Assembly: GCF_028864145.1 (NCBI RefSeq)
Contig: NZ_JARBHJ010000014.1
Span: 1-48,470 of the forward strand
DNA: 48,470 bases
Source of the DNA: Actinotignum schaalii
GTDB taxonomy: Bacteria; Actinomycetota; Actinomycetes; Actinomycetales; Actinomycetaceae
Direction: 5' to 3'
Shown: positions 1 through 31,886 of the stretch, piece after piece
Numbering within the stretch: the stretch's first letter is position 1
How the letters are laid out: each line of letters opens with the position of its first letter
Program-made: the position numbers and the translations under genes
The notes under the pieces: model-generated
Told to the model about the DNA's origin: nothing
Seen by the model: only the letters and a program-made list of their open reading frames with translations
The model's database searches: none

Positions 1-329
1 TCTCAGTCCCAATGTGGCCGGTCACCCTCTCAGGCCGGCTACCCGTCACCGCCTTGGTAGGCCATCACCCCACCAACAAGCTGATAGGCCGCGAGCCCAT
101 CCCCCTTCACATAAAGCTTTCCCAACACACCCATGCGAGCATGCCAGAATATCCGGTATTAGACCCCGTTTCCAAGGCTTATCCCAAAAAGGAGGGCAGG
201 TTACTCACGTATTACTCACCCGTTCGCCACTAATCCACCCACAACAAGTTACAGGCTTCATCGTTCGACTTGCATGTGTTAAGCACGCCGCCAGCGTTCG
301 TCCTGAGCCAGGATCAAACTCTCCACAAA
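1..329 (-). rRNA. 16S ribosomal RNA, 5' portion (partial)
   Basis: The reverse complement contains the universal 5' priming site of bacterial 16S (AGAGTTTGATCCTGGCTCAG, at 303-322), followed by the usual helix sequences including the GGCGTGCTTAACACATGCAA stretch and, near the window edge, the GACTGAGA end of the ~310-330 region. By analogy with E. coli numbering, nucleotide 1 of the mature RNA falls at about 329. Only about the first fifth of the gene is inside the window; the rest lies beyond base 1. The sequence is actinobacterial in character. The apparent open frames across it are not coding. Confidence 0.97.
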
Positions 330-18588: not shown

Positions 18589-19377
18589 ATGGCTACGGAG
18601 CGGCGGCGCGGTTCGCGGGCACTTGATACCCCCACGCGCGGCAAACGCGCCTCCAAGCCCGCGCCTTCTTCCACCACGGAAAAAGCCTCGCTCCGGGACG
18701 AGCGTGACCAGCTGCGCGCGGAGTGCGAGAAGTTGCGCGCAGAGCACAAGAAGCTTCGCGATGAAGGCACCGCGCTCCGCCACGAAGCGGAACTGTTGCG
18801 CACGGAAAATTCGCAGCTGCGCGGCGAGCGCGAGGGTGCGCGGGCGGAGGTCGCCACTTTCCAGACCCGCGTGACCGAGCTAGAGGGCCTGGTGGCGGAT
18901 TTGCGCCGTCGTGAAAAAGAGTTGGAAGCGGGCGTGGTGTACGCCTCGGGCGTGGAACAAAGTGCCGTGACTGCGCAGGCCCGCAGCGAGGACGCGATGC
19001 GACGCGCGGCCCGCCTGGTTGCGCGCGTGCGTAGTTTAGAGCAGCAGCTAGAAGAAGAACGACGGCGCTACGCGGCCCTCGAGGCGGCGGGTCGGGCTCG
19101 GGAAGCACGCCTGACCGTGGATTCGGCGCGCACCTCCGCCGCGCATGAGGAACGTTACACCAGCCAGATCCGCACTCTTGAGGTGCAGCTGCGCGAGGCT
19201 CAAGCGCAGCTGGCCGCCGCCCGCGTCCAGCTGGACACCGGCGAAGATGAGCTGGCCGAAGCCCGTACGGAGCTAGGCGAGGCCCGCTCCCAAGCGCAAA
19301 CCCAGCGCTACCTGAGCCTCGGGCTGGGAGGACTCGCGGCAGCGCTGGGTATTGCTCTACTCATTGTGCTTCTCTAG
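18589..19377 (+). CDS. Tail-anchored coiled-coil protein of unknown function
   Basis: The 262-aa protein has a basic, Ser/Thr-rich N-terminus (residues 1-35), then about 190 residues of heptad-like Leu/Ala/Glu/Arg sequence (for example LRDERDQLRAECEKLRAE) predicted to form a long coiled coil, and one C-terminal hydrophobic helix (LGLGGLAAALGIALLIVLL) ending at the last residue. This suggests a rod anchored in the cytoplasmic membrane by its tail, with the rod inside the cell. A role in cell-wall growth or division scaffolding would be a guess. Start: ATG 18589 with AAAGGAGGGG. It is the last high-GC gene before the low-GC block. Confidence 0.75.
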   Translation: MATERRRGSRALDTPTRGKRASKPAPSSTTEKASLRDERDQLRAECEKLRAEHKKLRDEGTALRHEAELLRTENSQLRGEREGARAEVATFQTRVTELEGLVADLRRREKELEAGVVYASGVEQSAVTAQARSEDAMRRAARLVARVRSLEQQLEEERRRYAALEAAGRAREARLTVDSARTSAAHEERYTSQIRTLEVQLREAQAQLAAARVQLDTGEDELAEARTELGEARSQAQTQRYLSLGLGGLAAALGIALLIVLL

Positions 19378-19412: not shown

Positions 19413-20186
19413 TTATTCCAATGAAGCTAACACCTTCAGCGAAGTTTCCAATGTGGCATCAATAGCTTTTGTAACAATTTCACGATCAGGTTCGTAGGAG
19501 GTCATGTCCTCGTCCTCATCCTTGAGGGGATTGCCGTCGATGGCCAAGATCGCGCCCGATTTGACTCGGTGGATTGAAGCCGTAATGAATAGCGCAGCTA
19601 CCTCCATCTCAACTCCGATTGCCCCGGCATCGCGCCATTTTGGTTGGTCATTGCCAAGAATCGGACTCGGATAGAAGTTAGCGCTGGTAATAACTACTCC
19701 CGAATGCGTATTCAAGTCGGATTCTTCCGCGGTGTGCACAAGACTACTTGTAACCTGAAGATCAGGAACCGCAGGATAATTCATAGGAACGACAAGTTCT
19801 GTGTAGCCGTCACAGCGCACAGCACCAGTGACAACAAGAAGATCTCCGTCGACCACATCGCGCTGTACGCCACCCGCTGTACCAGCACGGATGATGTATT
19901 TTGCGCCGCCTCGACACAGCTCTTCAAAGCAGCACGCGGCCCCCGCAGCACCGACGCCATGCGAGGCAACCGTAATGAGTTTTCCTCCATATTCCCCAAC
20001 GTAGGAATGGTATTCGCGATTTTTTGCAATGGGCTTTGCGTTGGTAAGAAGACCAGCAGCTTTTGCCGCTCGATCTGGGTCACCAACGACCAAAACTCGA
20101 TCCGCAAGTTCCGCTACCGGGATTTTCGTGAGAGCCAACGTTTCATCCTGCCCCTGCCGAAGTGGAACATATTCATTCTTACTCAT
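19413..20186 (-). CDS. Nucleoside phosphorylase, uridine-phosphorylase-like (NP-I family)
   Basis: The 257-aa protein is a hexameric-type NP-I phosphorylase. VVGDPDRAAKAAGLL is the phosphate-binding start, RAGTAGGVQRDVVDGDLLVVTGAV the core, and AIGVEMEVAALF carries the ribose-contacting Glu-Met-Glu. It should split a nucleoside with phosphate to the base and (deoxy)ribose 1-phosphate. The QRD-GDL-TGAVR pattern is nearer to uridine phosphorylases than to DeoD, but purine substrates cannot be excluded. It ends the eleven-gene minus-strand unit; AAAGGAG precedes its ATG. Having two phosphorylases side by side suggests that pyrimidine and purine (or thio/deoxy) nucleosides are both handled. Confidence 0.85.
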   Translation of the reverse strand: MSKNEYVPLRQGQDETLALTKIPVAELADRVLVVGDPDRAAKAAGLLTNAKPIAKNREYHSYVGEYGGKLITVASHGVGAAGAACCFEELCRGGAKYIIRAGTAGGVQRDVVDGDLLVVTGAVRCDGYTELVVPMNYPAVPDLQVTSSLVHTAEESDLNTHSGVVITSANFYPSPILGNDQPKWRDAGAIGVEMEVAALFITASIHRVKSGAILAIDGNPLKDEDEDMTSYEPDREIVTKAIDATLETSLKVLASLE

Positions 20187-20205
20187 CTATTTCTCCTTTG
20201 AAATT

Positions 20206-21000
20206 CTAAATATCTGAAAGTGCATCGTGGCATGGGCAAGAAGGGTCCACCTCCAAGCGAGCTACAGTTTCCGCAAGTGCTTTTTTAATTCGAGGCTGTC
20301 CATCGGCCACGGTTCGCCACACCAAGCCCGCGGTAACCGGATCATCCTGAACGCCTTCAACTCCCGCATCCAGATCTGAAACAAACGAGAGATTGCAGAC
20401 ACACATCCCCAGTTCACGAGCCAAAGTCGTTTCCGGGTGTTGTGTCATTGAGATGACGGAGAACCCTAGTTTTTGGAACACCTGTGACTCTGCACGAGTG
20501 GAAAAGCGTGGCCCTTGGATAACCACTGCAGTTCCACCGTCATGGTATTTCTCTTGCAAGCTGTCCAACGCTGCTACCGCAGCATCGTGCAAACGAGGAC
20601 AGTATGGATCCGCTACCGACACATGGATAACCTTGGGTCCTTCGTAAAAGGTTTGATCCCGGCCCCAGGTGCGGTCAAAATACTGGTCCGTTATGACGAA
20701 GTCTCCCGGTGCGTAGTCAGCACGCAGAGACCCCACCACAGACGAGGTAACCAGCGTAGAAACACCAAGATTATGAAGCGCTTTGATATTTGCCCGGTAA
20801 TTAATCATATGGGGTGGAACGCCATGATCCTTACCGTGCCGTGTCATGAAAGCGACTTCTTTTCCTCCGATTTCTCCAATAGATACTGCAGACGAAGGCC
20901 TTCCATATTCAGTATCTACAACAACATGTTCTGGGTCCTCTAGAAGTTCATATAGTCCGGACCCACCAATGATTCCCACCTTTGGCATTTCTATCACCAT
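20206..21000 (-). CDS. mtnP: MtnP-like S-methyl-5'-thioadenosine / purine nucleoside phosphorylase
   Basis: Trimeric NP-I phosphorylase of the MTAP branch, 264 aa. Features: IIGGSGLYELLED at the N-terminus, MTRHGKDHGVPPHMINYRAN (phosphate and ribose site), IQGPRFSTRAES and MTQHPETTLARELGMC. MTAP enzymes release adenine from methylthioadenosine and give methylthioribose 1-phosphate; several also accept 5'-deoxyadenosine, adenosine or inosine. The ATG at 21000 overlaps the end of the SDR gene by 7 nt; an ATG four codons later is an equally good start. Paired with mtnA and a class II aldolase in the same unit, its product most likely feeds the isomerase. Confidence 0.88.
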   Translation of the reverse strand: MVIEMPKVGIIGGSGLYELLEDPEHVVVDTEYGRPSSAVSIGEIGGKEVAFMTRHGKDHGVPPHMINYRANIKALHNLGVSTLVTSSVVGSLRADYAPGDFVITDQYFDRTWGRDQTFYEGPKVIHVSVADPYCPRLHDAAVAALDSLQEKYHDGGTAVVIQGPRFSTRAESQVFQKLGFSVISMTQHPETTLARELGMCVCNLSFVSDLDAGVEGVQDDPVTAGLVWRTVADGQPRIKKALAETVARLEVDPSCPCHDALSDI

Positions 21001-21758
21001 CCTGCTACTGCGGACATGCCACCGTCGACAACAAGGTCATGCCCACTAATAAAGCTGGCCGACTCCGATGCGAGGAAGACGCACGCACGGCCAATGTCTT
21101 GTGTATTTGCTGTTCTTCGGAGCGGAACCCCCGCCATCCAACTTTGGTAACCTGCCGGCCAACTTTCAGCCAACCTACCGTCACTATCGATGAGGCCAGG
21201 TGAAACCGAGTTAACTCGGATCCCGTATTTTCCAAATTCCAAAGCAAAATTGCGCGTCATCATTTTTACCCCGGCTTTGGAGGCATCGTAATGCGCGTGA
21301 TTCATTGCCGGAATCGATGCCTCGACCGAGGCGATGTTGATGATAGAGCCAGCTACATTCGCGTGCACCATCCGAGATGCCATCTTTTTCGAGACAATAA
21401 ACGTCCCGTTGAGATTGACATTTACTACTTGCTTCCATTGCCCGACCGTCATCTCTTCGAGCGAGATCACAGGTTGAACGCCAGCATTGTTGACGAGCAC
21501 ATCAACATTTCCACACTGTTGGAACGCTGCTTCGATCATTTCGTCAACGTCGGCTTCGGAGCAAATATCTCCAACCACCTGGAATGCAGATACGCCTATA
21601 TCACGCAGTTCTTTTGCAAGTTCATTTGCTCTGGTGCTTTCACGCAAAGAGTGCACGATGACCGAAGCACCCGCCTGCGCAAAGACATGAGCAATTCCAG
21701 AACCGAGATTCCCATCGGCTCCCGTAATCAAAACGACTTTATCTTTTAGTTCGCTCAT
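20994..21758 (-). CDS. Short-chain dehydrogenase/reductase (SDR)
   Basis: Classical SDR of 254 aa: the TGADGNLGSGIA cofactor loop (close to the usual TGxxxGxG), VDVLVNNAGVQP, catalytic Ser144, Tyr157 and Lys161 (HYDASKAG). The HSLRESTR segment after strand beta-2 has Arg/Ser rather than Asp, which favours NADP(H), a guess. It overlaps the aldolase stop by 4 nt (ATGA). In this operon the likely substrate is the aldehyde released by the aldolase (methylthioacetaldehyde, acetaldehyde or glycolaldehyde), or the sugar itself. Confidence 0.88.
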   Translation of the reverse strand: MSELKDKVVLITGADGNLGSGIAHVFAQAGASVIVHSLRESTRANELAKELRDIGVSAFQVVGDICSEADVDEMIEAAFQQCGNVDVLVNNAGVQPVISLEEMTVGQWKQVVNVNLNGTFIVSKKMASRMVHANVAGSIINIASVEASIPAMNHAHYDASKAGVKMMTRNFALEFGKYGIRVNSVSPGLIDSDGRLAESWPAGYQSWMAGVPLRRTANTQDIGRACVFLASESASFISGHDLVVDGGMSAVAGW

Positions 21759-22375
21759 GCGTGAATCAGCTCCACTCCTTCGGGGAATGCGGTCTCTTTA
21801 TCCCCGAGCAACATTGCTCGGTACGTGTTCTGAGCAGCCTGTTCTAATAGGGATGCACGCCTGAAAGCCATCTCAGGGTCTTCGCCAACCGTGCAGCAAC
21901 CGTGGTGCGCAAGTATTGCACAGTTATGTTTTTCCATCTCACGCGCAGTCTCATCGGCAAGTTCGTCCGACCCATTGGGATAATAGGGAACAACACCAAC
22001 AGACTTCACGTACAAAGCATCATCAAGCGTAAAGAACCGAATCTCGTAACCCAGAGCATTGAGTAGCACTGCCGTTTGGGGATGTAAATGGAAAACCGAA
22101 TTGACATCCGAACGGGTCCGATAGATTCTGTCATGGAGTTTCCACTCACTTGAGGGCCGAGAATCGAAAGGACCGGTTTGCCCAATTTTCATTCTCGCGA
22201 AAGATGCCGGGGTTAGTTCATCAAGCCAGGTACCCGACTTGGTAATAAAATACTCATCGGAGTCAGGGATACGCACCGAAATATTACCGCCAGATCCCAG
22301 GACTAGTCCCGAGGATACTGCAGTATGTGCGTGCCGAATCAGGCTATCCACCAACTCCTCTGTCGTCTTGTACAA
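21755..22375 (-). CDS. Class II aldolase/adducin family protein, ketose-1-phosphate aldolase
   Basis: The 206-aa protein belongs to the zinc-dependent FucA/AraD/MtnB superfamily. Metal and catalytic residues are visible: Glu77 in SSEWKLH, His96 and His98 in FHLHPQTA, and His157/158 in AILAHHG. GSGGNISVR near the N-terminus is the phosphate-site loop. Members cleave fuculose-, ribulose-, 5-deoxyribulose- or methylthioribulose-1-phosphate to DHAP and an aldehyde; MtnB is a dehydratase of the same fold. With MtnP and MtnA beside it, and no later methionine-salvage enzymes, an aldolase is more likely. The start is a TTG at 22375 with GGAGG 5 nt upstream. Confidence 0.85.
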   Translation of the reverse strand: MYKTTEELVDSLIRHAHTAVSSGLVLGSGGNISVRIPDSDEYFITKSGTWLDELTPASFARMKIGQTGPFDSRPSSEWKLHDRIYRTRSDVNSVFHLHPQTAVLLNALGYEIRFFTLDDALYVKSVGVVPYYPNGSDELADETAREMEKHNCAILAHHGCCTVGEDPEMAFRRASLLEQAAQNTYRAMLLGDKETAFPEGVELIHA

Positions 22376-22393
22376 TTTTCCTCCATGTGTTTG

Positions 22394-23167
22394 TCAACTT
22401 CTTACTCGCATCATCGAGAACTGAAAACGTCCCTCGCGGAAATACGTCTTGGCGAACAGAATCGGCAAATGATCTCTATCAAAATGCAACTGGTACAACC
22501 CTAAGAATGACTCGTCACGAGCTTCGTGTTGCATCCCAAAATCGCTCCCTACAACCGCATGTAGATCGGTCGAGGCGTATTTGATCGAGTGCCCCACAAG
22601 ATCGCATAGTGCAAAAATCGAGCCGTGTATCGACTGCACATCGAATCCAGGAGGGAAGATTCCGGCGCGTATGACTTCGAACGATACCGAAACCATCGCT
22701 TTATTCGCTTCTACTTCACGACGAGTTTCGATAACTGGTTCATCATCCTCGAGACGCAGTAGCTTTATTTCTGTTTCGGTTGCCGCACGGAGACGTTTTT
22801 CGGTATATCGAATCGTTGGATCCATCCCCGCTGACGCAATTGTCTGAGTCATCGATGTTAACTCTGAGAGGTTAGAAGCCATCACCGCTTGCACGTCAGT
22901 AACAAAGGTTCCTGAGCCCCGGCGACGAATAACTAAACCCTGAGCGGCCAACTCTTGTAATGCCGACCGCAAGGTATTTCGAGATACCCCAAGTTCCGCT
23001 GCAAGCACCGGTTCAGAGTCCAGCGCTTCGCCCGGTTCCCACTCACCCGAATGGATTCTCTTTCTTAGAACCGATGCCACTTCCGCGGCCGCACCGACAT
23101 TGGGGGCGCGTGTGACCACTGGAGTTACCGGGTTATCAGAATGCGGATAAATAGGGCTCAGAGTCAT
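22394..23167 (-). CDS. GntR-family regulator with UTRA ligand domain
   Basis: The 257-aa protein has a ~30-residue leader, then a GntR winged helix (about 27-97; EPVLAAELGVSRNTLRSALQELAAQGLVIRRRGSGTFV) and a UTRA effector domain of the HutC type (about 110-257). These repressors leave DNA when they bind a small ligand, often a substrate or phosphorylated intermediate of the neighbouring genes. The gene starts 1 nt after the cupin stop (TGATATG), inside the operon, so it should regulate itself. TTGT-N3-ACA(A/T) sites at 29425-29498 are its probable operators. Confidence 0.9.
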   Translation of the reverse strand: MTLSPIYPHSDNPVTPVVTRAPNVGAAAEVASVLRKRIHSGEWEPGEALDSEPVLAAELGVSRNTLRSALQELAAQGLVIRRRGSGTFVTDVQAVMASNLSELTSMTQTIASAGMDPTIRYTEKRLRAATETEIKLLRLEDDEPVIETRREVEANKAMVSVSFEVIRAGIFPPGFDVQSIHGSIFALCDLVGHSIKYASTDLHAVVGSDFGMQHEARDESFLGLYQLHFDRDHLPILFAKTYFREGRFQFSMMRVRS

Positions 23168-23168
23168 A

Positions 23169-23618
23169 TCATTTCCCTTCGTCGTGCTTTTGCAATGACT
23201 TTATCCCATAGGCATCCTGCATCTCCTTACTTGCGATTTCGAACCCTTCCCAAGAAAAGCCTGGGGCCATAGTTGTACCCAGGAGAGTCCACTCTCCTAG
23301 AGACATCGATCCTTGCCACACGCCAGCTTTCACCACGTGCTGAGGTCGCTGTCCTGCCCTCAAATCGTTCCCGAGTATCGTTTCCCTGCGTTCACCGCTT
23401 TCATCTATTTCGACTAGAAGCAACGGTGCCCCGGCATACCAGTGATATACCTCGGGACCGCTCAATCTGTGGAGTTCAGACCACTGATCTCCACCCACGA
23501 GGTAGTAGATCGCCGTGGAATACTCATCCGCATAGGTTTGCCGATGCAGTCCTCCTTCCTGGTCAAGCTCAGAAAGATCTAGCAGCTGTGCAATTTCCTC
23601 ACGTGTCAATGGATTCAC
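23169..23618 (-). CDS. Cupin of the DUF985 (Cupin_5) family
   Basis: The 149-aa protein has the DUF985 pattern: GGLHRQTYADE, STAIYYLVGGDQWSELHRL, VYHWYAGAPLLLVEID, and a GLGNDL-like loop followed by PQHVVKAGVWQGS and GTTMAPGFSWEGFEIA. The family has a single cupin barrel; its function is not established, although it is often called a sugar epimerase. It is not the acireductone dioxygenase of methionine salvage: the GxHxH metal motif is absent. I choose GTG 23618 because AAGGAGGAG lies 7 nt upstream; the frame extends ten more basic codons, which are the end of the permease gene in another frame. The gene overlaps that permease by 20 nt. Its position in the operon suggests work on a sugar or sugar phosphate. 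Confidence 0.8.
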   Translation of the reverse strand: MNPLTREEIAQLLDLSELDQEGGLHRQTYADEYSTAIYYLVGGDQWSELHRLSGPEVYHWYAGAPLLLVEIDESGERRETILGNDLRAGQRPQHVVKAGVWQGSMSLGEWTLLGTTMAPGFSWEGFEIASKEMQDAYGIKSLQKHDEGK

Positions 23619-24519
23619 GTTTCGTCTCCTCCTTCTTTTTCTTGACAAAATTCACTGTCGTAAGCAATAGCGCTAGCAAAGTAACGACATACGGTGCGGC
23701 ATCGGTTACCTGCGTCGGAATCCCAATTCCCTGCGCTCGGAAACCAAGCGCTTCAGCCGTACCAAAGAGGGCCGCGGCACCGAGAACCCCAATAGGATGA
23801 GAACGTGCGAGCATGACTGCCACAACCGCAATCCACCCACGCCCAGCGGACATCTCTTCAGAGAATTGCACAACGTTCCCCAATGCCAGCTGAGCACCAC
23901 CTAGTCCGCACAGGAGGCCCGAAATGATGACCGCAGCGTACTTGTACGAAACGGGATTCACGCCAAGGGTTTGTGCCGCGAGTGGCTTTTCTCCAACCCC
24001 ACGAAGCCGCAACCCAAGTGGCGTACGGAAGATAACGATCCATGCGACGAAAACAAGTACGAATGCGAGGTAGCCCAGCACCGTTTGACTGAATAGCGCA
24101 TTTCCAATCCACGGAATGTCACTGAGCAAGGGGATCGAATAGGTTTTCAATCCTACGATCCGCGGATCCACGAAGGTACCCGATGTGTGGAAAAGCCCCA
24201 CCAAAAGGAAGGAGGTGACGCCCGTCGCCAGAATATTCATAGCGACGCCAATAACGATTGGTTCCGCCCCGCGGTTGACGCTCCCATAGGCCAAGATCAA
24301 TGTAAAGACTCCCGCAGCAAACATGCCTCCCAGCGCACCCGGGAAAGCACTGCCGGTGTAATACGAAGTTGCCACCGCAAAGAAGCACCCGATCAAGAGT
24401 TGCCCCTCAAGCGCAATATTGAATATGCCTGCTTTATCGCAGATCAAACCGCCGAGCGCAGCAAACAAAATTGGAATAAGAGCTCGAACAATAGAATCGA
24501 TGAGTGCAGCATCAAACAT
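23599..24519 (-). CDS. Nucleoside ABC transporter permease (YufQ/NupQ type)
   Basis: A 306-aa permease with about eight to ten hydrophobic segments and the ALEGQLLIGCFFAVATSYYTG region of the BPD_transp_2 family. RTPLGLRLRGVGEKPLAAQTLGV is the coupling loop that contacts the ABC ATPase. It forms one half of the membrane channel of a BMP-type nucleoside importer; the other half is encoded just upstream. Start and upstream stop overlap (TAATG). Confidence 0.92.
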   Translation of the reverse strand: MFDAALIDSIVRALIPILFAALGGLICDKAGIFNIALEGQLLIGCFFAVATSYYTGSAFPGALGGMFAAGVFTLILAYGSVNRGAEPIVIGVAMNILATGVTSFLLVGLFHTSGTFVDPRIVGLKTYSIPLLSDIPWIGNALFSQTVLGYLAFVLVFVAWIVIFRTPLGLRLRGVGEKPLAAQTLGVNPVSYKYAAVIISGLLCGLGGAQLALGNVVQFSEEMSAGRGWIAVVAVMLARSHPIGVLGAAALFGTAEALGFRAQGIGIPTQVTDAAPYVVTLLALLLTTVNFVKKKKEETKRESIDT

Positions 24520-25718
24520 TACTTCTCGCCTCCTTCAGCAAAGGCGTATTTTTCGGCCTGAGATTGTGATGGCGATGTATTACCTGTCGTTTCATCATCA
24601 GGGTCTATCTTCTGCTTCTTCTTGAAGGACGGAAGCGCAACCCTGAATACGATCAAAACGATAACGACGCCCTGAATTACGGCAGCAATCTGGGGAGACA
24701 TTCCCAAACCTCGGCTCATTGAACCAGCGCCTGCCATAATGGCACCGAAGAACAACCCCGCAATAAGAACTGCGTAAGGACGGTACAGGGCTAGAAGTGC
24801 AACCATCAAGCCGGTCCATGCGTACCCGGACGATAGCAGAGCTCCGTCAATAAGACGTGTTTCGGGAGCTCCGATCGTTAGCATCACGCCAACAAGCCCG
24901 GCTATCCCACCGGACAGAGCCATAACTTGGAGGCTGAGCTTCCGCTCACTCCCACCGCCGTACCGAATGAACATTGGATTCTTGCCGTTGAGGCCGGATT
25001 CATATCCAAAAATGGTATTCCGGTTCACGTACGCCATTCCGATCACGACTAGGAGAATGATAACGAATGACCAATTCACAGAATTACCGATAGTGGAAAT
25101 GAAGTTACCTCGTCCAAGGCTTTCCGATATCGACTTGCCGAGCCCGGATTTCAAGGGGAGAAGCATGGGGATCTGAACGTCAAGAGATATCTGTTCCGAG
25201 GCAACCATCTGCGATGACTGGTCTTTCAACGGGTATCGAATCATCCACGACGCGAAGAAGCGAGCCGGATATGAGAGTAGAAGCGACGTGATGAGGATTG
25301 GTACCCCGGGCCAGAACTGCAAAACACCAGAGAGCAACGCCCAGAGCATTCCGCCGATAATGCCACCGAGAATGGCACATAGCATGACAAGCATGCCGGG
25401 ACCAGGCATATAGAGAGCCACCATGCCGCCCACTAGCCCGCCCATGATCATTTGACCTTCAGTGCCGATGTTTAGAATCCCGGATCGGAAAGCAACCGCT
25501 GTCGCCATTGCCATTCCAGTAAGAGGAATCGCTCGCTGAATTGCATTCGTCACTCCGGCAGAGGTAAGGAATGAGCCCTCTGCCATCGTTTTATAGGCAT
25601 CTGTGGGTGAATACCCCGCAGCAGCGATAAATATCGCTCCGATTATAAACGCAGCAAGAATTGACAGAGGAATCGGCCCCGCCAACCAACGCAAAGTCGC
25701 GTTCATTTTAGTCTTCAT
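24519..25718 (-). CDS. Nucleoside ABC transporter permease (YufP/NupP type)
   Basis: A 399-aa membrane protein of the BPD_transp_2 family, longer than its partner. FRSGILNIGTEGQMIMGGLVGG is the conserved EAA-like segment, and a lumenal domain of about 60 residues (SEQISLDVQIPMLLPLKSG) lies after helix 5. A charged cytoplasmic tail follows the last helix (FKKKQKIDPDDETTG). It heterodimerises with the YufQ-type permease. It overlaps the ATPase gene by 11 nt, so all transporter subunits are translationally coupled. Confidence 0.92.
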   Translation of the reverse strand: MKTKMNATLRWLAGPIPLSILAAFIIGAIFIAAAGYSPTDAYKTMAEGSFLTSAGVTNAIQRAIPLTGMAMATAVAFRSGILNIGTEGQMIMGGLVGGMVALYMPGPGMLVMLCAILGGIIGGMLWALLSGVLQFWPGVPILITSLLLSYPARFFASWMIRYPLKDQSSQMVASEQISLDVQIPMLLPLKSGLGKSISESLGRGNFISTIGNSVNWSFVIILLVVIGMAYVNRNTIFGYESGLNGKNPMFIRYGGGSERKLSLQVMALSGGIAGLVGVMLTIGAPETRLIDGALLSSGYAWTGLMVALLALYRPYAVLIAGLFFGAIMAGAGSMSRGLGMSPQIAAVIQGVVIVLIVFRVALPSFKKKQKIDPDDETTGNTSPSQSQAEKYAFAEGGEK

Positions 25719-27234
25719 TGTTTAGTACACCTCCTGCCATGAGTAGGCCCAGCTTGCTTTCAGTGGCTTCGCCAACTGGCATCTCGGCTACTATCTCGCC
25801 TTCATACATGACGGCAACGCGAGTGGATAGCGAGAGAATCTCACTGAGTTCCGCGCTAATCAGGAGAATTCCACCACCAGCATCTCGATAGTGGGTCAAC
25901 GTCGAATGGATAAACTCAATAGCTCCAATGTCAACACCACGGGTTGGCTGCTCCGCTACTAATAGTGGTGAGTTGTATTCCAATTCGCGCGCAATGAGTA
26001 TCTTTTGCAGATTTCCACCAGAAAGGGTGCCAACCGCAATACTCTCATTCGCGATCTTGACTGAGAATTTCTCAATAAGCCGTCGTGCGAAAGATGCACG
26101 GGCAGTGCGATCAATGATTCCTTTCCGTTTAGTCAATTCTTTGCTGCGATGGTGCCCCATTGCTAGATTCTCTTCAGCAGATGCATCGGGCGCCGCGCCC
26201 ACGCCTTGCCTATCTTCCGGGATATACGAAAGTCCCTTTTCGCGCCGTTTCCGCACAGTTGCTCTAGTAACATCAGATCCCGATATGGCTACTGAACCGC
26301 TCGTGATTGGAATCAGACCCGCGATGGCACTCGCTAATTCGCTTTGTCCATTTCCGGCTACTCCAGCTATTCCAAGAATTTCTCCCTCGCGAACTTCGAG
26401 CGAGAGATTACGAACTTTCGCTTGCTTTTGGGAGTCTTGAACGCAGAGGTTCTTCACCTCAAGCACCGTGCGTCCCGGAGCGAGTTGGGAGGGCGCCTGC
26501 GTAAGGTCAACATCACGCCCCGTCATCGCGTGCGTGACTGATTCCGGAGTTGCTTCAGCAGTATTCATTCGAGCTACCACTTGCCCATCTCGCAAAACAG
26601 TAACCCGATCAGAGATTTCCATAACCTCACGGAGTTTGTGGGTAATAAGAATGATCGTCTGACCCTGCTTCTTGAGCTGCCGCAAAACATCAAATAATTG
26701 GTCTGTTTCTTGCGGCGTCAACACGGCCGTTGGTTCATCCAGGATCAATACCTTCGCACCTCGATAGAGAACCTTAATGATCTCGGCGCGTTGCAGAAGA
26801 CCTACCGGCGCATCTGCTACGCGCATAAGTGGATCAACATCCAAACCAAAACGTTGCGCGTAACTTTCAACAATTTCGACAGCTTCAGACCGATTAATCA
26901 ATCCTCCGGTTGTTGGTTCCTTTCGGAACACAACATTCTCAGCAACCGTCATGGACGGGAACATCTGGAACTCTTGGAATACCATTCCAATTCCTGCCCT
27001 GATGGCATCCAGAGGGCTTGCGAAGTGGACTTCCTTCCCATCGAGGAAGATCGAACCTTCATCCGGAGTGTAAAGTCCAGACAGGATAGACATCAGGACT
27101 GATTTCCCCGCGCCGTTCTCGCCCATGAGCGCATGAATCTCACCCTTATTCACCGAAAAAGTGACGTTCTTATTCGCCTGGACACCGGGGAAGGATTTTG
27201 TGATGCCTCTCATTTCGATATCAAGCATTGGCAT
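25708..27234 (-). CDS. Nucleoside ABC transporter ATPase with two nucleotide-binding domains
   Basis: The 508-aa protein carries two ABC domains in one chain, as in YufO/NupO, RbsA and similar importers. Domain 1: Walker A GENGAGKS (about residue 40), Walker B VLILDEPTAVLTPQE, with a degenerate signature (VGLLQRAEI in place of LSGGQ). Domain 2: degenerate Walker A GVAGNGQSEL lacking the Lys, signature LSGGNLQKILIAREL, and LLVAEQPTRGVD. One functional and one degenerate site per domain is typical for this family. It energises import of nucleosides bound by the BMP lipoprotein, encoded upstream and separated from it by a hairpin. Confidence 0.93.
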   Translation of the reverse strand: MPMLDIEMRGITKSFPGVQANKNVTFSVNKGEIHALMGENGAGKSVLMSILSGLYTPDEGSIFLDGKEVHFASPLDAIRAGIGMVFQEFQMFPSMTVAENVVFRKEPTTGGLINRSEAVEIVESYAQRFGLDVDPLMRVADAPVGLLQRAEIIKVLYRGAKVLILDEPTAVLTPQETDQLFDVLRQLKKQGQTIILITHKLREVMEISDRVTVLRDGQVVARMNTAEATPESVTHAMTGRDVDLTQAPSQLAPGRTVLEVKNLCVQDSQKQAKVRNLSLEVREGEILGIAGVAGNGQSELASAIAGLIPITSGSVAISGSDVTRATVRKRREKGLSYIPEDRQGVGAAPDASAEENLAMGHHRSKELTKRKGIIDRTARASFARRLIEKFSVKIANESIAVGTLSGGNLQKILIARELEYNSPLLVAEQPTRGVDIGAIEFIHSTLTHYRDAGGGILLISAELSEILSLSTRVAVMYEGEIVAEMPVGEATESKLGLLMAGGVLNNED

Positions 27235-27252
27235 CCTCCCTTCTTACAAAAC

Positions 27253-27288
27253 TGGAGTGGGGCCGTGTAGGTTTCCAGCCCCACTCCA
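27253..27288 (-). terminator. Hairpin between the BMP and ATPase genes (attenuating terminator)
   Basis: Perfect 11-bp inverted repeat: TGGAGTGGGGC at 27253-27263 (plus strand) pairs with 27278-27288, loop 14 nt. On the minus strand it lies 6 nt after the BMP stop and is followed by AGTTTTGT. This partial terminator would let the binding protein be made in excess over the membrane subunits, as is common in ABC importers. Confidence 0.6.
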
Positions 27289-27294
27289 TTGGGA

Positions 27295-28356
27295 TTAGTT
27301 AAACTTGCCGGTTGCGTCAGGTGGCGTGATTTCGCCGTCGATAATTTTTTGCTTGATTTCCGCAAGCTTCGCAACCACATCAGGATGATCCATGACCGTG
27401 CATTGCGATTCGGCCGCACCCGGAGCGAGCGAAACAAGATCCATTCCGCCTTCTGCCAAGCCGAAGGATGAGAATGATTCAGCCTGTCCAGCATCAATCT
27501 TGTCGATAAGTTGTGGAATCAGCGAATCCATGAGTTTCAGAGTGCCGTCACCAACTCCGCCAGGAGTCAGCGGGCACTGATTCACATCTACGCCGTACCC
27601 GGTTACACCGCCACTTCCAGTCGCCTCAAAAATGCCACCGTTGGATCCGGAAGCTACCGCGAAGATATGGTCCACTCCCTGAGCAACTAAAGCAGATGCC
27701 TGCTCCTTGGCTCGTGCAGGATCGGAGAAGGGACTGTCACCGCCGATGAACAGCTGTTGGTCGGAGACCGCAGGATTGGCAGCCTTGGCTCCCGCTGCGT
27801 ACGCATCGGTGTACCGGTGAATGAACGGAATGTCCACCGCTCCGACCGAGCCTACGCGATTGCTCTTTGTGAGCAACCCCGCCTCATATCCAAGTAGATA
27901 GGCAGCTTCGTGCTCGCGGAAGACTGCACAGTACATATTTGACGGGTAGGGGCCCGGCGGGCAGTCGTCAATGTGAATGAACTTCTGGTCCGGATAACGT
28001 TCCGCATATTCGAACGCCACATCAGTGTAGGAATACGTAATCGTTACGATATAGTCAGGGTTTTCGGCAATCGCTTGATCCATATTTTGCCGGATCGAGG
28101 TCTGGTCTGAATTTCCCTCATAAACCTTGGCGGTTCCACCGTGCTTTTCGGCGGCTTTTTCAACACCAATCTTTCCTGATTCCAGGAACTTGTTTACACC
28201 GATGGGATCATTTGTCAGGTAAATATAAGTAGGGCCATCAGAACCGCCATTAGCAGTTCCGTTATCGGCGTTGTCACTTCCACCGCACCCAGTGAGTGAC
28301 AGGGCAGCGACACCTAAGATAGCCGCAAGCTTTGACTTCGCCTTTGAAGTAGCCAC
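27295..28356 (-). CDS. BMP-family nucleoside-binding lipoprotein
   Basis: The 353-aa protein has a signal peptide ending in the lipobox LTGC (Cys24), a Gly/Asp/Asn-rich linker, and a BMP (PnrA/TmpC/BmpA) periplasmic-binding domain. This family binds purine nucleosides, and some bind other nucleosides; aromatic residues stack on the base. The FIHIDDCPPG..NMYCAVFREHEAAYLLGYEAGL stretch is characteristic. It delivers nucleosides to the ABC transporter encoded downstream. Start GTG 28356 with AAGGAG. It lies 21 nt after mtnA, so isomerase and importer share a promoter. Confidence 0.93.
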   Translation of the reverse strand: MATSKAKSKLAAILGVAALSLTGCGGSDNADNGTANGGSDGPTYIYLTNDPIGVNKFLESGKIGVEKAAEKHGGTAKVYEGNSDQTSIRQNMDQAIAENPDYIVTITYSYTDVAFEYAERYPDQKFIHIDDCPPGPYPSNMYCAVFREHEAAYLLGYEAGLLTKSNRVGSVGAVDIPFIHRYTDAYAAGAKAANPAVSDQQLFIGGDSPFSDPARAKEQASALVAQGVDHIFAVASGSNGGIFEATGSGGVTGYGVDVNQCPLTPGGVGDGTLKLMDSLIPQLIDKIDAGQAESFSSFGLAEGGMDLVSLAPGAAESQCTVMDHPDVVAKLAEIKQKIIDGEITPPDATGKFN

Positions 28357-28377
28357 GCTGTTCTCCTTAGCTAATTT

Positions 28378-29400
28378 CTATTTTGTGCGAATTGGTCCGA
28401 GAGGTACCGTTGCGAGTGTTTCACCACGATCAATACGAATGACTCTCCGATCCGTGACAATAGCGGTGATATTCTCGTGCGGCGTCACGTCAAAAGCGGG
28501 ATTAATAGCTTCTGTGCCTTCAGGAGCTGTCCGGACTCCGTGGAAGTTTGCAACTTCCTCGCTACCACGATCTTCGATCTTGATATCAGCACCCGTCTTC
28601 GTCGCCATGTCGATCGTAGATTCCGGAGCCACGATAATGACCGGAAGATTCATCGCCTTAGCGCCGAGCGACAGCGAGTAAGTACCAATTTTATTAGCAG
28701 TATCACCATTAGCTGCAATGCGATCTGCGCCGGCGAAGAACGCCTGGGCAAAGCCCCGACGAAGTAGGAAAGGCCCCGCGGAATCAACAATGAGTCGGTA
28801 AGGTGCTCCCATTTGCTGGAGTTCCCACGCGGTAAGCCGCGAGCCCTGCAGAAGGGGACGAGTTTCAACGGGAAGCGCTTCCTTGAGAGTTCCTCGCTCA
28901 AACATGGTCTGGATAACACCGAGGGCGGTTCCCCGCTCCACGCACGCCAAACCACCGGTGTTGCAGACAGTCATAACCGAATGCTGCCCTTCACCAAGCA
29001 GTTCTTCCATAAGATCCGCGCCATATTGCCCCATGGAGTAACACGAAGCAATGTCCTCATCGCGAATCTTGAGAGCTTCTTCCAGAATCCTGTCTTTACC
29101 TTTACTCGCGTACTGCATAACGCGTTTAACGCCCCAGGAAAGGTTGACGGCCGTCGGACGAGCATTTGCGAGGCGATCTGCAGCATCTTCTAAGTCACTT
29201 CCGCTCAAGCCCTGTTGAGCGACTAGTGCGACACCGAGCCCTCCAGACACTCCGAGAGCGGGTGCACCGCGTACAGCCAGTCGCTTGATGTCGTCAATAA
29301 GCTCGTCAAGATCTGACACTTTTCGTACCACCAGTTCACCCGGCAGTTTCGTCTGGTCAATGAGTTCAATATGCCCATCGATCCAATCAATAGTCCTCAT
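28378..29400 (-). CDS. mtnA: S-methyl-5-thioribose-1-phosphate isomerase (MtnA family)
   Basis: Isomerises an aldose 1-phosphate (methylthioribose 1-phosphate, or 5-deoxyribose or ribose 1-phosphate in relatives) to the ketose 1-phosphate. It is related to eIF2B subunits. The 340-aa chain has the MtnA blocks: RGAPALG, NLSWGV, VCNTGG with catalytic Cys146, ETRPLLQGSRLTAWEL, and GADRIAANGDTANKIGTY with catalytic Asp226. It is the first gene of the minus-strand operon, next to the TTGT-N3-ACA operators. AAGGAGG lies upstream of ATG 29400. Its product is exactly the type of substrate used by class II aldolases such as the one in this operon. Confidence 0.92.
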   Translation of the reverse strand: MRTIDWIDGHIELIDQTKLPGELVVRKVSDLDELIDDIKRLAVRGAPALGVSGGLGVALVAQQGLSGSDLEDAADRLANARPTAVNLSWGVKRVMQYASKGKDRILEEALKIRDEDIASCYSMGQYGADLMEELLGEGQHSVMTVCNTGGLACVERGTALGVIQTMFERGTLKEALPVETRPLLQGSRLTAWELQQMGAPYRLIVDSAGPFLLRRGFAQAFFAGADRIAANGDTANKIGTYSLSLGAKAMNLPVIIVAPESTIDMATKTGADIKIEDRGSEEVANFHGVRTAPEGTEAINPAFDVTPHENITAIVTDRRVIRIDRGETLATVPLGPIRTK

Positions 29401-29424
29401 TGACTACCTCCTTCATCTTGTAAG

Positions 29425-29498
29425 TTGTTCTACAAGCCTGTCACAGCTGTGCTATCTTGTCAATAAGTTGTTCTACATCTACATCTATTGTTGGACAT
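29425..29498. promoter_or_regulatory. Three TTGT-N3-ACA(A/T) sites, probable GntR operators
   Basis: Site 1 TTGTTCTACAA (29425-29435), site 2 TTGTTCTACAT (29468-29478) and site 3 TTGTTGGACAT (29488-29498) lie in the spacer between mtnA and the divergent small gene. Sites 1 and 2 share the 14-bp direct repeat TAAGTTGTTCTACA (29421-29434 and 29464-29477). Centres are 43 and 20 bp apart, about four and two helical turns, which puts them on the same DNA face. Site 1 is also nested in CTTGTA-N8-TACAAG. HutC-type GntR repressors bind short TTGT/ACAA-type palindromes. The link to the GntR protein in the operon is inferred. Confidence 0.6.
29435..29463 (-). promoter_or_regulatory. Candidate promoter for the mtnA-importer-aldolase operon
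   Basis: A perfect TTGACA (29458-29463, minus strand) is followed after 17 nt by CAGGCT (29435-29440), a weak -10. The -10 box abuts operator 1, so a bound repressor would block it. Supported mainly by position and the perfect -35. Confidence 0.4.
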
Positions 29499-29522
29499 GT
29501 ACTCACAAGGGGGTAAGTACGT

Positions 29523-29816
29523 ATGGATCAGAAAACGTTACTTGAGGCTTTCGGATGGCTAGGATCACTCCTTGTCGTTCTTTCGCTAATCCTGCCTAAC
29601 CAAAGAAAGTTTCGCTTTTGGAACTTTGTCGGCAGCGGTATCGCCGCTATTTACAACCTCATACTGGGCATTTGGCCTATGGTTATCATGAATACAGCAA
29701 TCGTCGTCATTGATCTTTACTGGCTCCAACGACTCATGCGAGAGGAGCGTAACCCCCGGAAAGATGCAGATTCTGACGCGCATTCCCCGGCGTCAACACC
29801 CACTTCCAATACATAA
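29523..29816 (+). CDS. Small 3-TM membrane protein, YgjV/PQ-loop-like
   Basis: The 97-aa protein has three hydrophobic segments: WLGSLLVVLSLILP, then FVGSGIAAIYNLILGIWP and MVIMNTAIVVIDLYWL, with the conserved PNQRKFRFWN between the first two. It resembles YgjV/CBU_0592-type small proteins and has the size and three-helix plan of semiSWEET/PQ-loop transporters, where two copies make a carrier. The C-terminal 25 residues are polar and probably disordered. The ATG follows AAGGGGG. It is transcribed divergently from mtnA, immediately upstream of the nucleoside hydrolase, so it could export or import a sugar or nucleobase. That function is speculation. Confidence 0.7.
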   Translation: MDQKTLLEAFGWLGSLLVVLSLILPNQRKFRFWNFVGSGIAAIYNLILGIWPMVIMNTAIVVIDLYWLQRLMREERNPRKDADSDAHSPASTPTSNT

Positions 29817-29855
29817 GGACCTGCAAAGAAATTTCAACACCCACAGGAGTTTTCA

Positions 29856-30812
29856 ATGAAGAAGCTAATCCTAGATCTTGATACTGGAATCGACGATTGC
29901 CTGGCGCTTGCCTACGCTTTAGGTTCCCCGGAAGTGGAAATTATTGGTATCACCGGAACGTTCGGGAACGTTCAACGGGATACGGGCGTTCAGAACAGTC
30001 TCGCCCTTCTTGACCTGTTCGGTCGTCAAGACATTCCCGTATTTGCCGGAGCTTCCCACGCACTCCAACGTTCTACCTTCGATGTCCAAGAAGCATCGGC
30101 ACTCATTCACGGTAGAAACGGCCTCGGTAACGTACAGATCCCGAAATCCAACCGTCAGCCTGAACATGCACCTGCTTGTGACTTCCTTATCGAATCCGCA
30201 AAGGAACATGGCGAGAATCTAACACTAGTGGCAACTGGACCGATGACTAACCTTGCCCAGGCTTTGGAAAAAGACCCAGAATTCCACAATGGATGCCAGA
30301 TCACCATCATGGGCGGTGCCTTAACAGTTCCGGGCAACTGTAATCCAGTACAAGAGGCAAATATCTCCCAGGATCCAGAAGCTGCCGATATACTGTTCCG
30401 TTCTGGAACGGCGATCACCATGGTCGGTTTAGACGTGACACTACAAACACTCCTTACGTACAAAGAAACCGCAGCCTGGCGGCAAATTGGAACACCCGCA
30501 GCGAACTACGTGGCTGAGATAACGGATTCATACATCCAGGCATACGGCACAATCGCCCCGTATTTAGGAGGCTGTGGACTTCACGATCCGCTCGCGGTAG
30601 CTATAGCAATAGATCCATCGCTCGCCTCTTTCTTCACAACTAATCTGAAGGTCGATTTGTCAGAACCTTTCCGCGGCAGGACAATCGGAGACGAGCAGCG
30701 CCTTAACAATCCGCATAAGACCGTCAAGGTAGCACTCACGGTCGATGCTGAACGCTTTTTAAAGGAGTTTATGCACCGCGTATCTACTCTCCTACGCAGC
30801 CGCACGTTCTAG
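29856..30812 (+). CDS. Inosine-uridine preferring nucleoside hydrolase family protein
   Basis: Splits nucleosides with water into base and free ribose. The 318-aa protein opens with the calcium-binding motif DLDTGIDD (Asp7, Asp9, Asp13, Asp14) and carries VATGPMTNLA, the IMGGAL region, PVQEANISQDPEAADILF and the active-site LHDPLAVAIA (His and Asp). No signal peptide is present, so it acts on nucleosides after import. CAGGAG precedes ATG 29856. It follows the 3-TM gene in the plus-strand unit of the nucleoside block and marks its right edge: high-GC sequence begins within 20 bases of its stop. Confidence 0.93.
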   Translation: MKKLILDLDTGIDDCLALAYALGSPEVEIIGITGTFGNVQRDTGVQNSLALLDLFGRQDIPVFAGASHALQRSTFDVQEASALIHGRNGLGNVQIPKSNRQPEHAPACDFLIESAKEHGENLTLVATGPMTNLAQALEKDPEFHNGCQITIMGGALTVPGNCNPVQEANISQDPEAADILFRSGTAITMVGLDVTLQTLLTYKETAAWRQIGTPAANYVAEITDSYIQAYGTIAPYLGGCGLHDPLAVAIAIDPSLASFFTTNLKVDLSEPFRGRTIGDEQRLNNPHKTVKVALTVDAERFLKEFMHRVSTLLRSRTF

Positions 30813-30827
30813 AAACGGCACCCAAGC

Positions 30828-31886
30828 GTGATCTTCGGCGGCGAATTCACTTCTCTCCCGCACCGCTGCGCCCCGCGTGCTCTTCCGGTTCCGCCCGGTG
30901 CGATGCTGGTGCAATCGGGGCGCCAGGCCCTCGGCCTTATCGCCCAGGCTCTCGCCGCCCGCGGTATCCGCCGCATCATCGCGCCGGGCTTTCTGTGCGC
31001 GACCGCGGTCGAGCCTTTCCAGCTCGAAGGCATCCGGGTCCACTGGGTGCAGGTCGGCCCGGATCTCCTGCCCGCCCCGGCCCGGCTCGCCCCGCTCCTC
31101 ACCGACCCGCTGCGCTGCGCGGTCCTCATCTCCACCACCTTCGGAGCTTGGCCCGCGCCCGAGTTGCGCGCCGTGCTTGCGGAGTGGGAGGGCCGCGGTG
31201 GCGTCGTCGTCGCCGATCTCACGCACGCACCCTTCGGTGCCGCTACCCAGGACGTCCCGGCACGTTATGCCGCGGCATCGTTGCGGAAGTGGTTTCCGAT
31301 TCCCGACGGCGCCTGGGCGCTCGGCCCCTCGCTTCCCGCCGCGGCTGCGGGTAATGCGGCGGCGCGCGAAGCGACCCGGCGCGGCCTGCTGCAATTGCGC
31401 GGGGAGGAGAACGACGGCGCAGCTGAGGCCGCCATCGATGCCGCTCTCAACCCGAGCTCAATGAGCGGGCCCGCCCGGGATATTCTCAGCCACCTGGATA
31501 TTGCGGCGGCGCTGGAACGGCGGCGTGCAAATGCCCGGGTCCTGCGCGCGGCATTGCTGAACGAGGGGGTGCCGGAGGCTGCGCTATTCCGCGGCGGGGA
31601 AGAAAGCTGCGCGGCTACTAGCACCGCGACCGCGAGCAACGCGCCCGCTAGCCATGCTCCCTACGCGCTCGCGCTCCACCTGGACGCCCTACCGCCGCAC
31701 TGGCCCGCCCCGCACCATTGGGCCGAGCGCCTCGCCGCCCACGGAGTTTTCACCCCCGCTTTCTGGCCGCGCCTGACCCATATGATCGACTGGCCACATG
31801 TCCTCGCCCTACCCATCGACCAGCGCTACACACCCGCGCAGATGCCGGAGCTGGCGCTGCGGGTGGTGCAGCACTGGGCAGGGTAG
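30828..31886 (+). CDS. DegT/DnrJ/EryC1-like PLP-fold protein
   Basis: The 352-aa protein shows the overall order of DegT-type sugar aminotransferases: VQSGRQALGLIAQAL at the start, a mid-region VVVADLTHAPFGA corresponding to the PLP-ring Asp strand, and AASLRKWFPIPDGAWALG with the presumed Schiff-base Lys. It lacks sugar-nucleotide neighbours, and the segment after residue 250 has an Ala/Thr/Ser-rich insert, so substrate is unknown. Start GTG 30828 has no clear ribosome site. The gene resumes the high-GC background and is convergent with transaldolase. Confidence 0.6.
   Translation: MIFGGEFTSLPHRCAPRALPVPPGAMLVQSGRQALGLIAQALAARGIRRIIAPGFLCATAVEPFQLEGIRVHWVQVGPDLLPAPARLAPLLTDPLRCAVLISTTFGAWPAPELRAVLAEWEGRGGVVVADLTHAPFGAATQDVPARYAAASLRKWFPIPDGAWALGPSLPAAAAGNAAAREATRRGLLQLRGEENDGAAEAAIDAALNPSSMSGPARDILSHLDIAAALERRRANARVLRAALLNEGVPEAALFRGGEESCAATSTATASNAPASHAPYALALHLDALPPHWPAPHHWAERLAAHGVFTPAFWPRLTHMIDWPHVLALPIDQRYTPAQMPELALRVVQHWAG

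Follow-up and report, generated by a model that had tools for sequence, protein, structure and literature searches.

A predicted importer-fed operon for the use of 5'-deoxynucleosides in Actinotignum schaalii

What does an actinobacterium gain from an operon that sets a nucleoside-type importer beside two nucleoside phosphorylases, an isomerase of the MtnA family and a class II aldolase? Such an island, with a GC content of about 51% against 60-65% in its surroundings, lies in a contig of Actinotignum schaalii (NZ_JARBHJ010000014.1), which was analysed over its full length of 48,470 nucleotides and is called the window here. The window is a complete contig of a 2.2 Mb genome, the assembly of which comprises 77 contigs and is 98.66% complete, so that the genome-wide absences given below are not final. 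Protein families were assigned using Pfam and NCBIfam profiles. The island is probably an acquired operon for feeding on external 5'-deoxynucleosides, that is, an importer-fed, phosphorylase-type dihydroxyacetone phosphate (DHAP) shunt, and not one for ordinary ribonucleosides.

In the proposed route, 5'-deoxynucleosides would be imported by the BMP-type ABC transporter. Adenine would be freed from 5'-deoxyadenosine or 5'-methylthioadenosine (MTA) by the MtnP-like phosphorylase, and a purine, probably hypoxanthine, from nucleosides of the 5'-deoxyinosine type by a second phosphorylase that resembles the purine nucleoside phosphorylase (PNP) of Plasmodium falciparum (PfPNP), both enzymes yielding a 5-deoxyribose-1-phosphate. 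MtnA would isomerise this product to the 1-phospho-ketose, which the class II aldolase would split into DHAP and a small aldehyde (acetaldehyde or methylthioacetaldehyde). Repression of the divergent promoter is probably the task of the GntR/UTRA regulator, which would occupy two operator copies until it binds a sugar phosphate or nucleoside of the pathway, and the short-chain dehydrogenase (SDR) and the DUF985 cupin may have roles in the same pathway.

The conserved block

The operon comprises 11 minus-strand genes between 29400 and 19413, which overlap or stand a short distance apart, and two further genes are divergent (Table 1). All genes named in an earlier note on this DNA were found in place as open reading frames (ORFs), and its central claim of one island with its own regulator gene, an importer and the MtnP-MtnA-class II aldolase logic was borne out by profiles and gene positions. 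The importer genes are those of a BMP/PnrA-type nucleoside ABC importer, with a BMP binding protein, a two-domain ATPase and two BPD_transp_2 permeases. The neighbourhood, which that note had suggested seeking in relatives, was found in six lineages, referred to as type A: A. schaalii, A. timonense, G437 (another genus), G084 (a metagenome-assembled genome, MAG, of the Bifidobacteriaceae), an Arachnia MAG (L061; Propionibacteriaceae) and G144, these carriers falling in family group codes f1, f20 and f8. Common to all six clusters are MtnA, the BMP protein, the ATPase, both permeases, the cupin, both phosphorylases, the SDR and the GntR regulator; the gene order MtnA-BMP-ATPase-permease-permease-cupin is repeated in other genera, and the importer genes directly follow the isomerase gene in 6/6 carriers. 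Because the block recurs in six lineages, chance adjacency is excluded.

A free aldolase is present in five of the six clusters. None lies within 20 kb in G144, where a class II aldolase-SDR fusion takes its place (L195:5061-7031; NF006196 980.8, cut-off 831). The fusion favours a link between the SDR and the aldehyde step, but G144 also keeps a separate copy of the window-type SDR (49% identical to the window SDR); the same cluster has a second extra SDR and a deaminase-like amidohydrolase. An amidohydrolase is added in two of the six clusters (Arachnia and G144), with curated matches below cut-off that include 5'-deoxyadenosine deaminase and MTA/S-adenosylhomocysteine deaminase. The DUF985 cupin was found in all six type A clusters and at no other locus of the set surveyed for neighbours. 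In G437, the whole cluster lies in two identical tandem copies of a 12,461-bp unit (L122, L123, G437:C1:1725000-1764800), either a recent amplification or an assembly effect.

The gene list of the earlier note needs amendment at the divergent end, where a small membrane-protein ORF (29523-29816) had been missed; in A. timonense, G437 and G144, a homologue of this ORF adjoins MtnA. The nucleoside hydrolase, which the note had counted in, lies outside the conserved block: among type A carriers it occurs only in the two Actinotignum species and was not found in G437, G084 or G144 (the Arachnia stretch upstream of MtnA being outside the comparison), and it was rejected as a member of the system on that ground. 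The listed TTG start of the cupin overlaps permease 2, and its true start may therefore lie downstream. A 352-residue ORF at the island edge (30828-31886) has no Pfam match at 0.001, and a partial 16S rRNA occupies the contig end (window 1-329).

Table 1. Features of the island and of its divergent region, with positions in the window
Feature	Position	Strand	Basis
MtnA-family isomerase (predicted 5-deoxy / 5-methylthio-ribose-1-phosphate isomerase), first operon gene	28378..29400	-	TIGR00512 357.5 bits, cut-off 279; six active-site positions kept
BMP/PnrA-type binding lipoprotein, presumed nucleoside-binding	27295..28356	-	PF02608 120.2 bits; LTGC lipobox
Two-domain ABC ATPase of importer	25708..27234	-	PF00005, two stretches
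ABC permease 1	24519..25718	-	PF02653
ABC permease 2	23599..24519	-	PF02653
DUF985 cupin	23169..23648	-	PF06172 110.2 bits; in 6/6 type A clusters
GntR/UTRA regulator	22394..23167	-	PF00392 and PF07702
Class II aldolase (predicted: 5-deoxyribulose-1-phosphate to DHAP and acetaldehyde)	21755..22375	-	PF00596 137.6 bits; E77, H96, H98, H158 invariant; sole PF00596 match in genome
Short-chain dehydrogenase (SDR)	20994..21758	-	PF13561 200.2 bits; in 6/6 type A clusters
MtnP-like trimeric phosphorylase, SDLD purine site, Ala at 5'-hydroxyl His position	20206..21000	-	Profile scores and alignments
Hexameric Plasmodium-PNP-like purine phosphorylase (PNP_UDP_1), Leu replacing His7	19413..20186	-	Profile scores and alignments
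Operator-like pair: exact 14-nt direct repeat TAAGTTGTTCTACA at 29421 and 29464, palindromic core TTGTTCTACAA at 29425-29435	29421..29477	.	Between divergent genes
Small divergent membrane-protein ORF, 97 residues	29523..29816	+	Imp-YgjV 22.7 bits, just below Pfam cut-off 23.5
Nucleoside hydrolase, outside conserved block	29856..30812	+	PF01156 299.2 bits

Active sites of the phosphorylases, the isomerase and the aldolase

Evidence for 5'-deoxynucleosides comes from a histidine that is absent in cluster phosphorylases of two folds. In PfPNP, His7 lies 3 Å from the 5'-hydroxyl of the bound inhibitor (PMC3885546), and His4* of a Bacillus enzyme touches sugar hydroxyls (PMC3434127); the histidines of E. 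coli DeoD, E. coli Udp and PfPNP share one alignment column. The second phosphorylase of the island had been labelled Udp-like, a label that was dropped: its score with TIGR01718 is 162.8 against a uridine phosphorylase cut-off of 280.3, its best PDB match is 3fow, which is PfPNP, and the equivalent of Asp206 is kept, so identity as a uridine phosphorylase was ruled out. Judged by sequence, it is a Plasmodium-PNP-like purine phosphorylase, which keeps Val66, Met183, Glu184 and Asp206 of PfPNP and has Leu for His7, Cys at position 73 and Phe rather than Tyr at position 160. Two kinds of sister cluster were included in the comparison of the histidine column, type B (a divergent MtnA-like isomerase with a BMP importer) and type D (the divergent isomerase with NupC or a PNP). 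The residue is Leu in the window, Leu, Leu, Ile and Leu in other type A clusters, Val, Val and Val in type B and Val in type D. As controls, 42 hexameric matches were listed, of which 30 had loci and the 12 without a locus were left out; removal of the proteins of L014 and of the window itself gave 28 rows from the same taxonomic order, 26 with His and two with Leu. One Leu row, L136, proved to be part of the G144 type A cluster, the remaining exception being L140. With L136 therefore moved to the clusters, His is present in 0/10 cluster rows against 26/27 controls, L062 being uncounted because its N-terminus is unreadable. Position 66 is Val in 9/10 cluster rows, as in wild-type PfPNP, and Met in 26/27 controls, and position 160 (PfPNP numbering) is Phe in the window and in all cluster and control rows.

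The same absence is seen in the trimeric fold, where type D PNPs have Ala, Ala, Ala, Met and Ala (His in 0/5), against His in 30/30 control PNPs (those with loci, of 51 matches listed). In human PNP, we take His257 to be the residue that touches the 5'-hydroxyl. This residue is reported to line the pocket (PMC10226123). The MtnP-like protein has Ala at the position in all five rows of the alignment, as in the MTA phosphorylase 1v4n, the MtnP of G144 lying outside this alignment. Its scores are below the cut-offs (TIGR01694 265.2 vs 274.85; PRK07823 293.8 vs 306), and its purine site reads SDLD against TDYD in MTA phosphorylases (MTAPs), a reading of the kind that favours adenine. Its MTAP-type base site and the Ala at its 5' position are, by sequence, features of a DHAP-shunt phosphorylase, though its score is below the MTAP equivalog cut-off. 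The earlier suggestion that ordinary nucleosides of the inosine or uridine type are the main substrates is thus not supported, both phosphorylases having residues typical of enzymes that bind no 5'-hydroxyl and the uridine phosphorylase model being missed widely. Mutagenesis of PfPNP points the same way, as His7Phe raised the Km for inosine from 11 to 353 µM and left that for methylthioinosine at 9-10 µM (PMC3885546).

Window MtnA keeps the two Arg, the Cys, the Gln, the Asp and the Asn (six positions) of ribose-1,5-bisphosphate (R15P) isomerase (PMC5789824) and of Bacillus subtilis MtnA. Its TIGR00512 score above cut-off and the kept catalytic Cys and Asp are those of a DHAP-shunt isomerase. 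The R15P isomerase model TIGR00511 gave 139.6 against a cut-off of 314.1, and Ser137 and Lys240, whose side chains hold the 5-phosphate in the R15P isomerase PH0208 (PMC5789824), are Thr and Thr in window MtnA when aligned to the Thermococcus chain 3a11; identity as an R15P isomerase was ruled out by the score and the missing side chains. For the aldolase, the four residues of Table 1 are invariant in an 11-row alignment, with E77 aligned to Glu76 of DrdA. The three histidines H96, H98 and H158 are presumably metal ligands, as in FucA, and with these and the catalytic Glu the protein is a class II aldolase by sequence; its scores against FucA (PDB 2opi, 75.3 bits) and DrdA (6btd, 71.5 bits) are similar.

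Relatives of the aldolase were collected by a scan of genome contigs, from which the best 80 of 133 were kept. Context labels were assigned to 88 loci, namely nine loci from a genome search and the 80 without L048, which duplicates L014; the distant matches L011/L022 and L012/L023, the 51% match L004/L015, and L016 and L017 (records of L084 and L090) were left out, and G144 stands outside the set because it is without a free aldolase. The labels were obtained using tblastn at 1e-10 within the available flanks, and genes beyond the flanks are therefore missed. An FGGY kinase was found at 34 loci, none of the sought genes at 19, MtnA with a 5-methylthioribose (MTR)-kinase homologue at 10, the divergent isomerase alone at seven, type A, type D and MtnA alone at five each, and type B at three. 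On the aldolase tree, the labels cluster yet switch (17 changes, against a minimum of 7 and a shuffled mean of 49), so that the aldolase is a reused module; type A takes 2 changes and forms one group in 23% of bootstraps, values that neither establish nor contradict a single origin of its aldolase. The ten loci with the MTR-kinase homologue belong to Leucobacter, Microbacterium and Frigoribacterium. One kinase, scanned at L075, scored 353.7 against a cut-off of 275 and adjoins a sugar-type ABC importer, which by its gene content is the kinase form of the DHAP shunt.

Divergent MtnA-like isomerases were seen linked to nucleoside importers and phosphorylases (L071:6893-7936, L084:6608-7717, L089:6440-7552). 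In four rows from types B and D (L016, L071, L083, L089), Gln replaces the first, phosphate-binding Arg and the catalytic Cys stands in Cys-Trp-(Ala/Gly)-Glu-Ser; the two that were scanned reach 202.5 and 202.4 with TIGR00512 (cut-off 279) and lie just above the cut-off of 271 of the broader PRK05720 (271.6 and 277). Ribose-1-phosphate (R1P) routes were set aside as the first choice for the sister clusters after the trimeric-PNP alignment, in which their PNPs lack the 5'-hydroxyl His. At loci such as L026:3175-7209, an aldolase of the same clade lies beside the FGGY kinase, often with two further neighbours that we take to be a 2-hydroxyacid dehydrogenase and an MFS transporter; these loci probably represent another ketose-1-phosphate route.

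Alternative readings of the operon

Several observations weigh against 5'-deoxynucleosides as the substrates. The 5'-hydroxyl His is not universal in PNPs, being absent from the PDB chain 6tk9 and the Planctomyces-type 4m1e and present in 8swu (compared with the L016 protein). The hexameric controls look mostly DeoD-type and the residue difference may reflect ancestry; His may have been lost only once in this fold, and MtnP is like MTAPs in general in having Ala. In PfPNP, His7Ala brought no shift towards methylthioinosine (inosine/methylthioinosine 2.2 vs 1.6), whereas His7Ser (0.1) and His7Phe (0.3) did, and Tyr160Phe costs at least 10-fold in methylthioinosine activity (PMC3885546). For the PfPNP-like enzyme, Phe at position 160 therefore makes a methylthio substrate less favoured than a plain 5'-deoxy one, and the residues lean towards plain 5'-deoxynucleosides for this enzyme and 5'-deoxy or methylthio ones for MtnP. 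The aldolase falls below every curated cut-off shown (25 of 28 families), and since its relatives often lie beside FGGY kinases (34/88 loci) its substrate is not fixed by family. Lastly, a search without a positive control found no homologue of the Arachnia deaminase in the genome of the window, and none was seen in the available flanks of the four remaining carriers, so that the hypoxanthine branch would need imported deaminated nucleosides. Deaminated forms are among the 5'-deoxynucleosides reported in human urine at about 1-300 µM (PMC10986504).

The alternative that survives best, though it is unlikely, is ordinary ribonucleoside catabolism, in which imported purine nucleosides would yield R1P, which MtnA would convert to ribulose-1-phosphate and the aldolase then to DHAP and glycolaldehyde; the haloarchaeal route would thus have a counterpart in bacteria. 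A BMP-type importer, a nucleoside hydrolase adjoining the operon, aldolase relatives whose FGGY-kinase neighbours would fit pentulose-1-phosphates, and a FucA-type ribulose-1-phosphate aldolase at work in haloarchaea (PMC9700705) agree with it, but the hydrolase is not conserved with the block, the readable cluster phosphorylases are without the 5'-hydroxyl His, and MtnP is like an MTA phosphorylase at both the base and the 5' site. Moreover, the block has no R1P kinase or ribulose-1,5-bisphosphate (RuBP) phosphatase, and MtnA is by score no R15P isomerase. DeoB phosphopentomutase had no match in the genome, which gives weak support to this route; mutases other than DeoB can serve. No match to the TIGR01700 PNP was found in the genome either, against matches in 48/59 genomes of the same search.

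Disposal of internal 5'-deoxyadenosine and MTA, with the importer serving an unrelated nucleoside need, is improbable. Although kinase-isomerase-aldolase disposal of 5-deoxyribose is a published role in Bacillus thuringiensis (PMC6079011), the position of the importer genes directly after the isomerase gene in every carrier argues against a detoxifying operon, and the aldolase is absent from three of six genus genomes, so the pathway is not needed for growth. Of three PNP_UDP_1 matches in the genome, two lie in the island and one is a 473-residue Pfs-like protein elsewhere, and housekeeping therefore need not rest on the island. We read this protein as a Pfs-type nucleosidase and its neighbour as LuxS.

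Salvage of methionine or sulphur from MTA, with the aldolase-like protein acting as the MtnB dehydratase or feeding a methylthio salvage branch, is very improbable even though methionine salvage begins with MtnP and MtnA. The weak MtnB match of the protein (TIGR03328, 58.1 bits) is far below the cut-off of 137.05 and below its scores with PRK08333 (128.4) and FucA_Meth (93.9), no later salvage gene is present in the block (MtnC and MtnD were not searched genome-wide), and the island's aldolase is the single PF00596 match in the genome, so that no MtnB is seen; the score and the single match ruled out MtnB identity. Another 5'-modified nucleoside, halogenated or antibiotic-type, handled by the same enzyme logic is scarcely credible: 5'-fluoro-5'-deoxyadenosine is converted to DHAP and fluoroacetaldehyde in Streptomyces cattleya (PMC6079011) and pockets without a 5'-hydroxyl contact could admit other groups, but the island shows nothing of halogen or antibiotic chemistry and the nucleosides reported from urine are 5'-deoxynucleosides.

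If the operon does serve feeding on external 5'-deoxynucleosides, these waste products of S-adenosylmethionine enzymes would be a dedicated food source with its own import system in Gram-positive bacteria, and the absence of the 5'-hydroxyl His in two phosphorylase folds would give a sequence rule for predicting such enzymes. A parallel is suggested between the unrelated urinary colonists Actinotignum and extraintestinal E. coli, which would have taken up the same chemistry. A wider proposition may be put forward tentatively, with doubt somewhat outweighing belief: Actinobacteria may hold a family of importer-coupled, GntR-regulated operons for foreign 5'-deoxynucleosides, in which transport (BMP ABC, NupC or sugar ABC), deamination and His-less phosphorylases of two unrelated folds are mixed around one aldolase clade and MtnA or the divergent isomerase, the window version, with which a urinary bacterium could use adenine as well as hypoxanthine forms, having been acquired independently of the DHAP shunt of extraintestinal pathogenic E. 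coli for the same niche.

Regulation, acquisition and known systems

Between the divergent genes, the two copies of TAAGTTGTTCTACA lie 43 bp apart. When up to one mismatch is allowed, its 13-base core has three sites genome-wide, two of which lie in this region; the reversed control pattern has none. Among the relatives, A. timonense and G437 retain TTGTTCTACAA, GTTGTTCGACAAC stands upstream of MtnA in G144, and G084 has only a 7-of-8 match. What counts as operator evidence is only that the 14-mer is repeated and that it recurs upstream of MtnA in relatives, and the repeat pair is the presumptive binding site of GntR. TTGTNNNACAA as a rare motif alone was rejected (1 found vs 0.30 expected in the window). 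A promoter scan found nothing in the divergent region; over the window as a whole it gave 3 matches, where shuffled sequence gave 10.0.

By ORF, the GC fraction is 0.50-0.54 in the eleven operon genes, 0.48 and 0.51 in the two divergent genes, and 0.67 and 0.71 in the adjoining ORFs; acquisition of the operon is the best reading of its sequence. The window aldolase shares 100% identity with its A. schaalii FB123 counterpart and 96% with the A. timonense one. Over 16.5 kb, a stretch that takes in most of the island, the window is 99.99% identical to the A. schaalii genome G345. The aldolase is present in three of the six Actinotignum-genus genomes searched and absent from the other three. Two of these island-free genomes, G343 and G344, match the flanks of the window at about 79-99% DNA identity and hold, between window positions 19371 and 30827, a nucleoside hydrolase (64-65% DNA identity to that of the window) and a transporter-like ORF instead (L128:16864-19223, L129:12592-14951), the latter presumably of the MFS type. 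The site thus resembles a slot that takes varying nucleoside genes. In the third genome, G347, the 20 kb compared match the window over the transaldolase region alone. No tRNA was found in the window, and no integrase was recognised among ORFs of at least 120 aa at 15-36 kb, no profile scan for integrases having been made. At family level, the aldolase was found in 7/213 genomes at E <= 1e-25, with the block in four (G000, G345, G346, G437) and an FGGY-kinase neighbour in three (G363, G364, G466).

A literature search on nucleoside use by A. schaalii returned only general genome and urinary papers; the main text of the genome paper is without the terms methylthio, purine or adenosine and counts three CUT2 transporters (PMC5720513). 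The claim of the earlier note that the combination with an importer and a repressor is undescribed proved too strong, as transporters (PMC6079011) and the MtnR operon (PMC12632272) are in print. What stands is narrower: in the literature searched, with subscription journals mostly outside its scope, no description was found of a DHAP-shunt cluster with a BMP nucleoside importer, a second PfPNP-like phosphorylase and a GntR gene. The chemistry would be that of a known pathway, and the BMP importer, the two phosphorylases without the 5'-hydroxyl His and the GntR gene appear to make up a variant not found described.

Among known systems, PfPNP, which also cleaves 5'-methylthioinosine (PMC3885546), is the nearest solved relative of the second phosphorylase. 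The haloarchaeal non-carboxylating pentose bisphosphate pathway shares a nucleoside phosphorylase, an isomerase of the IF-2B family and a FucA-like aldolase that leads to DHAP, but differs in its R1P kinase, R15P isomerase and RuBP phosphatase and in guanosine as substrate (PMC9700705). Trios of a kinase or phosphorylase, an isomerase and an aldolase are reported from six phyla, including the drdKIA clusters for 5-deoxyribose, four of which are figured with sugar transporter genes; the transporters named are for sugars and not nucleosides, the assayed Bacillus enzymes begin with a kinase (PMC6079011), and the match of DrdA to the window aldolase reaches only 71.5 bits. In E. coli, external 5'-deoxynucleosides are used via mtnK, mtnA and ald2, which lie beside a gene for a putative transporter and are controlled by MtnR and CRP. 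This system is like the island in its isomerase, aldolase, putative transporter and repressor, in the use of external 5'-deoxynucleosides and in its extraintestinal, including urinary, niches; it differs in its nucleosidase-kinase route, its one putative permease and a regulator of another family that is found also in E. coli without the cluster (PMC12632272, PMC10986504). The MtnP route is named in the same reports as the other known form of the DHAP shunt. A further likeness in enzymes is to the MtnP-MtnA-Ald2 shunt of Rhodospirillum rubrum, in which a phosphorylase, MtnA and a class II aldolase likewise lead to DHAP and an aldehyde (PMC10986504, PMC8102628); the sequence of Ald2 lies outside the comparison, and the island differs in uniting such genes with a BMP ABC importer, a GntR regulator, an SDR, a cupin and a second, Plasmodium-PNP-like phosphorylase.

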